Assembly: GCA_018304545.1 (NCBI GenBank)
Contig: JAGVVZ010000003.1
Span: forward strand, 1 to 32,986
Source of the DNA: Candidatus Aenigmatarchaeota archaeon
GTDB taxonomy: Archaea > Aenigmatarchaeota > Aenigmatarchaeia > CG10238-14
Length of the DNA stretch: 32,986 bases
Direction: 5' to 3'
Numbering within the stretch: position 1 is the stretch's first letter; each line of letters opens with the position of its first letter. The notes under the pieces were generated by a model. That model had not been told where the DNA came from. It saw only the letters and a list, made by a program, of their open reading frames with translations, and did no database searches. Positions 19,911-26,865 of this stretch are shown piece by piece. The position numbers and the translations under genes are program-made.

Positions 19911-20573
19911 ATGAAAGTAGATTTTATATTAAAAATAGGCGGCAGTTTAACAAAAGAAAGATCATTAAAAGAGTTATGTAAAGTTATAACAAAATTCTCT
20001 AAAAAATACAAAATTGTAATAATACCGGGAGGTGGTAAAAATGCCGAATATATACGTTATTTATACAAAAAATTTAAGTTAACAGATGAATCTGCACATA
20101 ATATGGCCATATTAGCGATGGATCAATATGGTTATTTTCTTTCTAATCTAATGAATGTAAATCTGTCTAGTGATATAAATAAAATTAAATTCGATAAAAA
20201 ACCAGTTGTCCTATTACCATTTAGACATATGATTAACAAAAATCCTTTAGAGAATTCTTGGGATGTCACTTCAGATTCTATAGCTGCTTATTTCTGTTAT
20301 AAGTTAAAGGCAAAAAATCTCATATTAGTTAAAAATGTTGATGGCATATATCATTCAAATCCTGAAAAAAATAGAAAAGTAAAACTTATCAGAAATGTTA
20401 GTGCAACTTTTTTAATAAAGTTGAGGAAAAAAACATGTATCGATTCATATCTTCCGAGAATAATACAAAAAAGAAAAATAAATTGTTTTATAGTCAACGG
20501 AAAATACCCAAATAGACTATCCAAAATTTTACAAAATAAAGAAACAGTTTATACCAAGTTGGTCTTTGAGTGA
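19911..20573 (+). CDS. mfnE: MfnE-type amino acid kinase family protein
   Basis: 220 aa, COG2054-type small amino acid kinase. Seen: KIGGSL at 8-13, PGGGKNAEYIR at 39-49, DQYGY at 71-75 and the diagnostic NSWDVTSDSIAA at 115-126, then KNVDGIY. In methanogens MfnE phosphorylates the aminomethylfuran phosphate F1-P to its diphosphate for condensation in methanofuran synthesis. The adjacent gene, convergent and overlapping by 25 bp, encodes MfnB of the same branch. Function on F1-P is inferred from family and context; a related phosphorylated furan is also possible, since the final condensing enzyme and transaminase are not in the window. Confidence 0.83.
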   Translation: MKVDFILKIGGSLTKERSLKELCKVITKFSKKYKIVIIPGGGKNAEYIRYLYKKFKLTDESAHNMAILAMDQYGYFLSNLMNVNLSSDINKIKFDKKPVVLLPFRHMINKNPLENSWDVTSDSIAAYFCYKLKAKNLILVKNVDGIYHSNPEKNRKVKLIRNVSATFLIKLRKKTCIDSYLPRIIQKRKINCFIVNGKYPNRLSKILQNKETVYTKLVFE

Positions 20574-21286
20574 AACATATTGACTTTTTTGTAAAGCTCT
20601 TTCACTAATTCTTTCTTAAGTTGACCTTTCTTTCTATCCTTTTTTTCACAAACAGCACCTCTAACTCCAAATATGTCCGCGCCAGTAGACCATATTCTTT
20701 CGACATCATTAACATCCAAAGAACCGGCCAAAGCTACAAATAAATCATATTTGTGAGCTTTATTAACAAATTCTTTTAACTCATCATTTTTTACAAAATC
20801 AAACAATTTAGTTTTGTTTTTATTCGCAGTGTCCATTAATATACCGTCGATATTGCAATTTTTCGCTATTTTTTGTATATTTGATATATTTATCGATTCT
20901 ATATTCTTGTAATCTGCATAAACACCTGCGACCACTTTAACTTTGGGACAAAAGGTTTTCACAGATTCACTTATTTTTTTTAACATGAACGTTGTTTGAG
21001 AATATGTTTTCACTCCAAATAAACCAACCTTCACGAAATTGACACCCAACATAGAAGCACCATAAGCGGCTAAAGATGCTGTACCAGGAAGATTTGGCAT
21101 ATCTCCTATTGTCGCACTAATTTTTACATATTCTGGAAGCAGATCTCTGATATCACTAATTACTGTAGGAAAATTGGCACCTAAAGAACCTTCGTCTGGA
21201 TTTTTAATATCATATATAACATCACACTCGCTTTTGAATATCTCTAGTGCCTCCGTTTTATTTTTTATACTTATTAAAAGTTTCAT
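20549..21286 (-). CDS. mfnB: (5-formylfuran-3-yl)methyl phosphate synthase, MfnB
   Basis: 245 aa, full length for the family. MfnB condenses two glyceraldehyde 3-phosphates to 4-(hydroxymethyl)-2-furancarboxaldehyde phosphate. Seen: DIKNPDEGSLGANFP with Lys28, SATIGDMP, NFVKVGLFGVK with Lys86, LMDTANK with Asp152 and Lys156, ALAGSL, and GVRGAVC near the end; the four named residues correspond to the catalytic Lys27, Lys85, Asp151 and Lys155 of the Methanocaldococcus enzyme. It should be active. Its 3' end overlaps the mfnE-like gene by 25 bp (20549-20573). A TATA-like palindrome lies about 35 nt upstream of the ATG. Confidence 0.93.
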   Translation of the reverse strand: MKLLISIKNKTEALEIFKSECDVIYDIKNPDEGSLGANFPTVISDIRDLLPEYVKISATIGDMPNLPGTASLAAYGASMLGVNFVKVGLFGVKTYSQTTFMLKKISESVKTFCPKVKVVAGVYADYKNIESINISNIQKIAKNCNIDGILMDTANKNKTKLFDFVKNDELKEFVNKAHKYDLFVALAGSLDVNDVERIWSTGADIFGVRGAVCEKKDRKKGQLKKELVKELYKKVNMFHSKTNLV

Positions 21287-24070: not shown

Positions 24071-25141
24071 TTAAAAGGTTAAGAAATTGTGTTTGGTGAC
24101 CCTTATATCTTTCGTCACATCTATACCGGGTATTTTATTAACTTGAATAAATTCAACCTTCTCATGAAGTTCCTGTATATTTTTGGCACCAATGAGACCA
24201 AATGCCGCTTTTAGGTTTTTTCCTATTATGTTAATTATAGTTTTAACTGGACCTTTGTAAGGAACCAATGTAGATATTCCTTCAACCCTAAAGTTGTTTT
24301 TGAAATCAGTTTCTAAATAATCTTTTTCTATTTCTACAAAAGAATAAAGAGTTCCGTTGTATTCTTTATATTTTTTATTTTCTTTTTTTACGATTTTCCC
24401 AGGCGTTTCTTTAGTTCCTGAAAGTATATATCCGATCATCACAGAGTCAGCACCCGCAGCTAGAGCCTTTACTATATCACCGGTACTTCTAATACCGCCA
24501 TCTGCAATAACAGGCATTTTGTATTTTCTTACTGTATTAAATATATCAATTAATGCTGATATCTGGGGTCTCCCGACACCTGTTATTTTCTGCAGAGTAC
24601 ATATAGACCCAACCCCGACTCCAACCTTTATTCCTGATATTCCGAGATCACAATACTCTTCTATATTAGAAGAAGTACCAAAATTACCCACTACCACATC
24701 ACATGATATCTGCTTAGTTAAATCTTTGACAAAATTGAAAATTTTTTTGTTAGATGCAGATGTGGTTTCTATAAACAACACATCAGTATATTTACTTATT
24801 TTAATTGCTCTTTCTTTATCGTTAACTCCAACAGAAGCTGCCGTTATCTTATCATTGCTCTTAACTTTTTTTATTTGGTTTATTTGATCCTCTATGGTCA
24901 TATATCTATGTATAACGCCCAAGCCTCCTTCGTTGGCAAGAGCTAACGCCATATCTGACTCAGTTATATTAGACATGGGTGTGCTAATGATTGGTATTTT
25001 TAGTTTAATTTTTCTCGTTAATTTCGTTGATAGATCAATATCTATAGGTTCTATTGATGTAAAACTCGGTTTTATTAGAATGTCATCGAAACCAAGTTCA
25101 CTTTTTATGGTTCTATCATCAAAATAATTATTTTCTTTCAT
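24071..25141 (-). CDS. IMP dehydrogenase/GMP reductase superfamily paralogue without CBS domains
   Basis: 356 aa, near the length of GMP reductase and shorter than IMPDH because the CBS pair is missing. Seen: STPMSNITESDMALALA, GGLGVIHR, active-site loop GSICTLQKITGVGRPQ with Cys181, phosphate loop ADGGIRSTGDIVKALAAGA, and VEGISTLVPYKGPV. Two sites differ from both enzymes: the NAD-binding D-x-AHGHS strand is FIETTSAS, and the nucleotide-contacting (R/Y)-G-M-G-S loop is YNGTLYS. A normal purine role is possible, but the placement upstream of the amide ligase and UbiA suggests a repurposed redox enzyme on another phosphorylated substrate. The ligand is unknown. Confidence 0.82.
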   Translation of the reverse strand: MKENNYFDDRTIKSELGFDDILIKPSFTSIEPIDIDLSTKLTRKIKLKIPIISTPMSNITESDMALALANEGGLGVIHRYMTIEDQINQIKKVKSNDKITAASVGVNDKERAIKISKYTDVLFIETTSASNKKIFNFVKDLTKQISCDVVVGNFGTSSNIEEYCDLGISGIKVGVGVGSICTLQKITGVGRPQISALIDIFNTVRKYKMPVIADGGIRSTGDIVKALAAGADSVMIGYILSGTKETPGKIVKKENKKYKEYNGTLYSFVEIEKDYLETDFKNNFRVEGISTLVPYKGPVKTIINIIGKNLKAAFGLIGAKNIQELHEKVEFIQVNKIPGIDVTKDIRVTKHNFLTF

Positions 25142-25310: not shown

Positions 25311-26114
25311 ATGGCAAATGTATATGTAGTGGCTCAGAATTTTGAGATATATGAGGGCGATAAATTAGACTTATTTGCTCGCACAGGAAAAATAAACATA
25401 AACCACTTATACAATGTCGGTGCTCAAGGGGTCATTCTTGGACACTCTGAAACTGGAGATACTCCAGAGATAGTAAACAAAAAAATATTAACAATTTTAG
25501 ATTTCCAAAATAAAACTGGTATGACTGTAAATAAACTGATTATCTTAGTAGGAGAAACATTAGAAGAGTATAAAAATAGTAGCCTTGAAGAGATAGCTAA
25601 ATTGGTGGTAAAAAAATGTGGCATAATTTTTAAAAAAATACCTGAGGGTTTTTTGTCAAATGTAATAATTGGCTATGAACCAAAATGGGGCTCCTCAGGA
25701 AGTGGGAATAACGATGTGCCGCCACCCGAATCCGAACTTGTTTCAATATGTATAAATAAAATAAAAAACTTCATTAATAAAAAATATGGATCTTCTAAAA
25801 AAGTATTTTTCATATATGGCGGCAGAGTAACTCCTGAAAGAATCAACATCTTGAATGACAGCAACTTAAATGGTTTCATACTAGGATCAGCATCTAGTTC
25901 AGTAGAAAGATTACTTGAAATCGCGAAACCTATGGTAGAAACACAACCAAACAAAACAAAAATATTAGTCTGTAATTTCAAAGCATATAAGTTAGCTAAT
26001 CCTTATGAAAAATATATATCTGTATTAAGAAAATTGCCCACGAGTTTCAATATTTATTTGGCCCCGCCCTATACAGATATTAGAGAAATTTCTGATCTAA
26101 TAAGTATTTTTTAA
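25311..26114 (+). CDS. tpiA: Triosephosphate isomerase with circularly permuted strand order
   Basis: 267 aa. TPI interconverts DHAP and glyceraldehyde 3-phosphate, the MfnB substrate. The protein begins at the third strand of a normal TPI (VYVVAQNF, then NVGAQGVILGHSET with His45), continues through VGETLEEY, GYEPKWGSSGSG with Glu123, FIYGGRVTPERIN and GFILGSAS, and only then carries strands one and two: KILVCNFKAYK (Asn222, Lys224, normally near residues 10-13) and FNIYLAPPYTDIREI. All four catalytic residues are present, in permuted order. The frame upstream closes at 25245-25247 and holds no strand-1 sequence. The HisA-like gene follows 22 nt downstream. Confidence 0.88.
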   Translation: MANVYVVAQNFEIYEGDKLDLFARTGKININHLYNVGAQGVILGHSETGDTPEIVNKKILTILDFQNKTGMTVNKLIILVGETLEEYKNSSLEEIAKLVVKKCGIIFKKIPEGFLSNVIIGYEPKWGSSGSGNNDVPPPESELVSICINKIKNFINKKYGSSKKVFFIYGGRVTPERINILNDSNLNGFILGSASSSVERLLEIAKPMVETQPNKTKILVCNFKAYKLANPYEKYISVLRKLPTSFNIYLAPPYTDIREISDLISIF

Positions 26115-26136: not shown

Positions 26137-26865
26137 ATGAAAATAATACCTGTAATAGATATATTAAACAAAACGACAGTTCATGCAATCAGAGGGAATA
26201 GAAGAGAATACAAGCCCATCAAAAGTATTTTATGTAAATCTTCTGATCCTATAGAAATATCGTCACGTTTTAGATCTTTGGGATTTAGCGAAATGTACAT
26301 AGCTGACTTAGATTCAATAATTAATAAAAAACCCAATTTTTATCTTTATCAAAAGATTAAATCAAAAACAAAACTTGAATTAATGGTTGATCCGGGAATC
26401 AACAATTTTATTACTGCTGAAAATGTTCTAAATAATGGTGCTTCAAAAATTATAATAGGCACAGAAACAATGAAGAATTTTGGTTTCATAGAACAGATAA
26501 GCAAAAAAATTCCCGTGGATAAAATCATAATTAGCATAGACATGAAAAATAAAAAATTACTTAGCAGGTCCAGAATAATAAAATTGATGTCTCCCATGAA
26601 ATTTATTAAGGAGGTCAATGATATCGGCATAAAAAAGATCATTTTGCTTGAGTTAACTAAAGTCGGAAGCCAAGAAGGTGTAGACATAGATTTCTTAGAC
26701 AAAGTAAATGATAAATTGGATATTATAGTGGGTGGTGGAATAAAAAATATAAAGGACATAGAAAATTTAGATGAAATGGGTATCTATGGAGTTCTTATAG
26801 CCACTTCATTACATAATGGTAATATAACTAGAAAGGAGTTAAGAAGTTGGATAGGTAACTCTTAA
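26137..26865 (+). CDS. HisA-like barrel protein (COG1411)
   Basis: 242 aa. It resembles phosphoribosylformimino-AICAR-P isomerase HisA: VIDIL with Asp8, IADLDSI at 55-61, MVDPGI, IIGTETM, Asp135 in SIDMK, and GGGIKNIKDI at 199-208. The GNRREYKPIKS segment at 20-30 is characteristic of the COG1411 subgroup, not true HisA. No other histidine gene is near. As I recall, COG1411 proteins occur in methanogens and methylotrophs that make methanofuran or tetrahydromethanopterin, without a settled function. Its position after TPI in a cluster with mfnB and mfnE suggests a role with a phosphorylated furan or sugar intermediate. Confidence 0.8.
   Translation: MKIIPVIDILNKTTVHAIRGNRREYKPIKSILCKSSDPIEISSRFRSLGFSEMYIADLDSIINKKPNFYLYQKIKSKTKLELMVDPGINNFITAENVLNNGASKIIIGTETMKNFGFIEQISKKIPVDKIIISIDMKNKKLLSRSRIIKLMSPMKFIKEVNDIGIKKIILLELTKVGSQEGVDIDFLDKVNDKLDIIVGGGIKNIKDIENLDEMGIYGVLIATSLHNGNITRKELRSWIGNS

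Follow-up and report, generated by a model that had tools for sequence, protein, structure and literature searches.

Gene Content of the Locus

The window analyzed here comprises the first 33 kb (32,986 nucleotides) of a 187-kb contig (C11; JAGVVZ010000003.1) from the genome of a Candidatus Aenigmatarchaeota archaeon (G000; 0.96 Mb, 92% complete). An intact ORF at 25311-26114 on the forward strand encodes a protein (P0001) that an initial annotation had described as a natural circular permutation of triosephosphate isomerase (TPI), and the ORF, coordinates and residue numbers given there all proved correct. The features relevant to this gene are as follows.

19911..20573, + strand: MfnE-like amino-acid kinase family protein (NF040622, 169 bits versus a cut-off of 300)
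20549..21286, - strand: MfnB, (5-formylfuran-3-yl)methyl phosphate synthase (PF04476, 248 bits; NF002575 below curated cut-off)
25311..26114, + strand: circularly permuted TPI, 267 aa (native-versus-rotated profile searches, rotation scan, AlphaFold2, Foldseek and homologues)
25311..25940, + strand: equivalent of strands 3 to 8, residues 1 to ~210, with H45 and E123 (Pfam match, predicted strands)
25941..25958, + strand: linker from old C terminus to old N terminus, ~residues 211-216 (predicted coil, best cut)
25959..26111, + strand: equivalent of strands 1 and 2, residues 217-267, with N222 and K224 (phmmer piece, predicted strands, tail shuffles)
26137..26865, + strand: HisA/HisF-related protein (TIGR00734/PF00977), 22 nt downstream of the permuted TPI gene

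The permuted TPI gene and the HisA/HisF-related gene probably form one operon. In a profile search, the permuted TPI was the sole PF00121 match in G000, and a PF00121 search of its contigs found no canonical second TPI.

Between 11543 and 26865, MfnB and the MfnE-like kinase occur together with a UbiA-type prenyltransferase, two asparagine-synthase-like amidotransferases, two PaaK/F390-synthetase-like ligases, a TrpB-like enzyme, a decarboxylase and a HisA-like protein. This is perhaps a cluster for a metabolite or cofactor that contains furan; the archaeon is not expected to make methanofuran. Within the window, positions 24071-25141 also encode an IMPDH/GMP-reductase-like protein of 356 aa that scores far under both equivalog cut-offs, and the contig end (1-2985, - strand) encodes a very long membrane protein whose internal repeats (SLNLTFWSFDKDRTLEIYIDDT...) are imperfect. 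The GC content of the window is 0.29-0.31, versus 0.33-0.38 in stretches sampled elsewhere on the same contig, and its tetranucleotide correlation to the genome is 0.75-0.77, versus 0.84-0.92 in the sampled stretches. The window resembles an acquired island.

Order of the Strands

According to the initial annotation, the protein starts at the strand that is third in ordinary TPIs and ends with those that are first and second, and profile, phmmer and rotation-scan results all bore this out. In native order, the Pfam TIM profile (PF00121) matched from position 55 to 243 against residues 4-206 with 86.4 bits; when residues 215-267 were put first, the match extended over profile positions 2-243 with 99.0 bits, the curated cut-off of 20.1 bits being exceeded in either order. 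Rotation thus turned a partial TPI match into a full match with a higher score. Relative to ordinary TPI, the initial fifth of the chain has been relocated to the end. Since the whole profile is covered after rotation, and the strands, read from the N terminus, run 3 to 8 and then 1 and 2 rather than 1 to 8, we classed the protein as a permuted relative and not as an ordinary member of the family. NCBIfam models behaved in the same way. The equivalog TIGR00419 gave 50.2 bits in native and 60.4 bits in rotated order, below its cut-off of 130.6, indicating a divergent homologue. Searched with phmmer against T. maritima TIM (1b9b), the native sequence matched in crossed pieces, query residues 217-265 pairing with chain residues 5-56 and residues 20-208 with 71-250, while the rotated sequence gave a single alignment (4-261 to 6-250) and the E-value went from 2.9e-14 to 2.6e-17.

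A profile was built from 30 canonical bacterial-type TPIs, and every cut point was scored against it. This rotation scan gave 85.1 bits for the native window protein and a best score of 106.4 bits with the cut at residues 210-214; an earlier run with poorer trimming agreed. None of 1000 tail shuffles scored as well as the observed order (highest, 98.9 bits). Native order was best for all 30 canonical TPIs, a lenient control considering that the same proteins had built the profile.

Predicted Fold

AlphaFold2 was given the window protein, a relative described below (from record JACPNN010000015.1) and canonical fragments starting at strand 3, so that it received no canonical information on strands 1 and 2; N-terminal pieces of canonical TPIs were excluded from the input, having been misaligned by MAFFT. 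An eight-stranded barrel was predicted for the window protein (mean pLDDT 85.3, pTM 0.87), with the caveat that AlphaFold2 knows TIM barrels well. The predicted strands span residues 3-8, 40-43, 75-80, 118-122, 166-169, 188-191, 217-222 and 246-251, and the C-terminal segment forms two of the eight. A coil is predicted at ~211-216, between helix 198-211 (helix 8) and strand 217-222 (strand 1), and by the predicted secondary structure the new termini lie between helix 2 and strand 3. The relative was predicted to have eight strands in the same permuted order (pLDDT 85.0, pTM 0.87). When both models were searched against the PDB with Foldseek, TIM structures ranked top for each; about 211 columns of 267-274 were aligned, as would be expected for a permuted chain from an aligner that works sequentially.

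Relatives With the Same Cut

Two further archaeal TPIs with the same cut were found, one in another Aenigmatarchaeota family (G123) and one in a second archaeal phylum (G676). The first was recognized by its odd profile coordinates in a phylum-wide PF00121 search. Its gene (L035:2594-3418, - strand) encodes a protein with the chain order of the window protein, and the locus is also present in JACPNN010000015.1, from a Candidatus Aenigmatarchaeota metagenome-assembled genome. This protein aligns with the window protein collinearly over its full length (BLASTP, 32% identity, 144 bits). The G676 protein scored 256 bits over positions 4-280 of a profile built from two permuted sequences. Against PF00121, the two relatives scored 107.9 and 101.9 bits. 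In the rotation scan, they rose from 98.7 to 122.0 bits (G123) and from 102.7 to 119.2 bits (G676) at equivalent cuts. Altogether, of about 777 archaeal genomes that were screened with PF00121 or the permuted profile, 3 carried a permuted TPI; weak members could escape such screens.

Support for the start at strand 3 comes from the G123 gene, whose 5' end is duplicated over 109 bp, the copy beginning at the start codon. This partial copy is 94% identical to the gene and covers its first 36 codons. In this region (L035:3312-4298), a MazE-like/PIN toxin-antitoxin pair lies between the copy and the intact gene, as if the pair had inserted and duplicated the 5' end.

Exact-peptide scans of genome and viral contigs with the window protein gave no match. 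Degenerate-pattern scans recovered the JACPNN record only (the G676 copy, with KAYRL..PYA, escapes the pattern used) and found no permuted relative in viral contigs. Phage and plasmid records gave partial matches to canonical TPIs only, with no permuted one. ORFs of 275-336 aa in three genomes (G262, G326 and G325), long enough for a permutation, were canonical in order.

These relatives bear directly on whether two TPI fragments could have been joined chimerically during assembly or binning. The source genomes are drafts, and the JACPNN record comes from a metagenome-assembled genome; however, the same cut recurs in three genomes, in proteins that are 32-36% identical, at loci that differ in GC content (0.31, 0.47 and 0.55) and in their neighbors. 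The genes are single open frames in mid-contig, and strands 1-2 are present once in G000, with no second copy. The recurrence of the cut in two more genomes excludes an assembly rearrangement, which we regard as vanishingly improbable. The arrangement shared by three archaeal genomes is, therefore, a real, inherited redesign and not a sequencing error. Together with the profile scores and the predicted fold, the occurrence of the same cut in independent genomes strongly supports a natural circular permutation of TPI.

In an unrooted tree built from a rotated alignment, the three permuted proteins formed one clade (98.9/100 support) on a long branch, separate from the archaeal-type TPIs and from the small sample of bacterial-type TPIs. 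In all three, loop 3 has an insertion before its FARTG motif, and loop 4 is shortened after GHSE, which removes the Arg-Arg pair; loop 6 (PxWxxxGSG) is longer by one residue and is followed by an extended segment, loop 8 reads GSA, and the moved segment carries the motif N[FW]KAYxLxxPY. On this alignment evidence, the chain order is an old inherited trait, the simplest reading being a single permutation followed by long divergence.

Active Site, Loops, and Dimer Interface

The initial annotation had called the active site complete. This holds for the catalytic residues: His45, Glu123, Asn222 and Lys224, which correspond to His95, Glu165, Asn11 and Lys13 of standard TPI, do not vary among the three permuted proteins, and neither does Glu47. 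It needs qualification where the loops are concerned. Compared with canonical TPI (PF00121, e.g., 1b9b), to which it is homologous over its full length after rotation, with the catalytic residues kept and a barrel predicted, the window protein has a chain with strand 3 first and strands 1-2 last, a longer loop 3, a shorter loop 4 lacking the Arg-Arg pair, one more residue in loop 6, Gly-Ser in place of Gly-Gly in loop 8, and no Cys in the VCxGE motif. In loop 7, one of the phosphate-binding loops, it reads YGGR, with Arg172 in place of Ser, where ordinary TPIs and both relatives have YGGS. Given Arg172 and the altered loops 3, 4 and 6, its substrate or rate could differ from that of ordinary TPI.

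The dimer-interface loops differ as well: Arg98 of loop 4 is lost with the Arg-Arg pair, and Glu77 of loop 3, itself longer, is replaced by K, Q or G across the three proteins. In TPI, Arg98 and Glu77 meet across the dimer interface, which makes these changes noteworthy, and our guess is that the interface is altered. One may go further and propose that a monophyletic, widely scattered family of permuted TPIs in small archaea replaced the ordinary enzyme in some of their genomes and rebuilt its dimer interface, possibly with another oligomeric state; we hold this tentatively and lean slightly against it.

Function and Metabolic Context

Judged from the conserved residues and from its being the sole TPI found in two of the genomes, TPI activity is the best reading of the permuted protein. 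In G123 (95% complete), it is the only PF00121 match found, and both PGK and FBP aldolase/phosphatase are present, the latter encoded about 6.8 kb from the permuted TPI gene. With these enzymes and no other TPI, this archaeon would need a working TPI for gluconeogenesis. The need is less obvious in G000, where a genome search found neither PGK nor FBP aldolase/phosphatase. In G676, an archaeal-type canonical TPI occurs alongside the permuted one, and the roles of the permuted enzyme may, therefore, differ between hosts.

An alternative is that the permutation is real but that the clade, though homologous to TPI, has switched to a different substrate, for instance some other small aldose/ketose phosphate that the furan-related cluster of the window makes or uses, and is not a TPI. 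Consistent with such a shift are the long branch, the window copy's Ser-to-Arg change in loop 7, its longer loop 6 and its loop-4 deletion, the missing PGK and FBP aldolase/phosphatase of G000, and the additional canonical TPI of G676; moreover, TPI-fold relatives do differ in substrate, an L-erythrulose-1-phosphate isomerase (11ef) being among the Foldseek matches. However, the catalytic residues are invariant, YGGS is kept in loop 7 of both relatives, and the permuted protein is the sole TPI found in a genome that carries PGK and FBP aldolase/phosphatase, all of which make a change of substrate rather unlikely.

The initial annotation had also proposed that the protein serves as a dedicated supplier of glyceraldehyde 3-phosphate to MfnB, an idea that would refine rather than exclude the reading as TPI. 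MfnB condenses two molecules of glyceraldehyde 3-phosphate (PMC11365854); in the window, it lies within the same 33 kb as the MfnE-like kinase and the permuted TPI, the only TPI found in G000, and of 156 Aenigmatarchaeota genomes, G000 alone has MfnB. The two genes are, however, ~4 kb apart on opposite strands, in different transcription units with several genes between them, and the permuted clade predates the neighborhood seen in the window. G123 carries the permuted TPI without MfnB. Dedicated supply thus fails as a general explanation and is plausible for G000 only, and even there we think the chances are low.

Origin and Significance of the Permutation

TPI, the namesake of the TIM barrel, is very ancient, nearly universal and a model of catalytic perfection. 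To our knowledge, no natural chain-order variant of it has been described, and no natural permuted TPI was found in a full-text literature search, outside of which most subscription papers lie. Related changes of order are known elsewhere. Transaldolase and class I fructose-bisphosphate aldolase represent a natural TIM-barrel permutation by two beta/alpha units (PMC2213659), a shift equal to that of the permuted TPI; however, these Schiff-base aldolases form another superfamily and are separate enzymes, not a single enzyme that occurs in two orders. Engineered permuted barrels, such as sTIM11, demonstrate that new termini are compatible with the fold (PMC13105402), although sTIM11 is a designed protein, not a natural enzyme, and is not a TPI by sequence. 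The archaeal-type TPI (PRK04302/NF003302), the usual TPI of related Aenigmatarchaeota, belongs to the same Pfam family, but is shorter, canonical in order and distant from the window protein (27.6 bits at best).

The permuted clade scored far higher with bacterial-type than with archaeal-type profiles. The most likely route would begin with a bacterial-type tpiA that was duplicated in tandem or fused and then lost its outer halves. Tandem duplication and trimming, which the initial annotation had suggested, is reasonable as an origin because it is the usual route to permuted proteins; no duplicated TPI-TPI intermediate was found. A short linker would then bridge the old C and N termini, expected to be neighbors in the (beta/alpha)8 barrel, and the barrel would reassemble with Asn222, Lys224, His45 and Glu123 in place to interconvert dihydroxyacetone phosphate and glyceraldehyde 3-phosphate. 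Having arisen once, the permutation would have been inherited by, or transferred between, small archaea. Overall, we consider it quite likely that the protein is a working, circularly permuted TPI and that its chain order arose once, through duplication or fusion and trimming, and then spread by descent or transfer.

The archaeal phylum to which G676 belongs also has a separate clade of bacterial-type TPIs in canonical order, with NWKAY or NWKSY at strand 1 (L042, L070, L071 and L073). It is possibly related to the unpermuted ancestor, a joining that has no tree support.

For annotation, the family shows how pipelines can miss permuted genes, since models in native order match them partially and NCBIfam cut-offs fail. 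The permutation also provides a rare, discrete character for tracing a gene between archaeal phyla. Finally, a natural clade of permuted TPIs offers a ready-made test of whether folding, dimerization and catalysis are constrained by the order of the chain.
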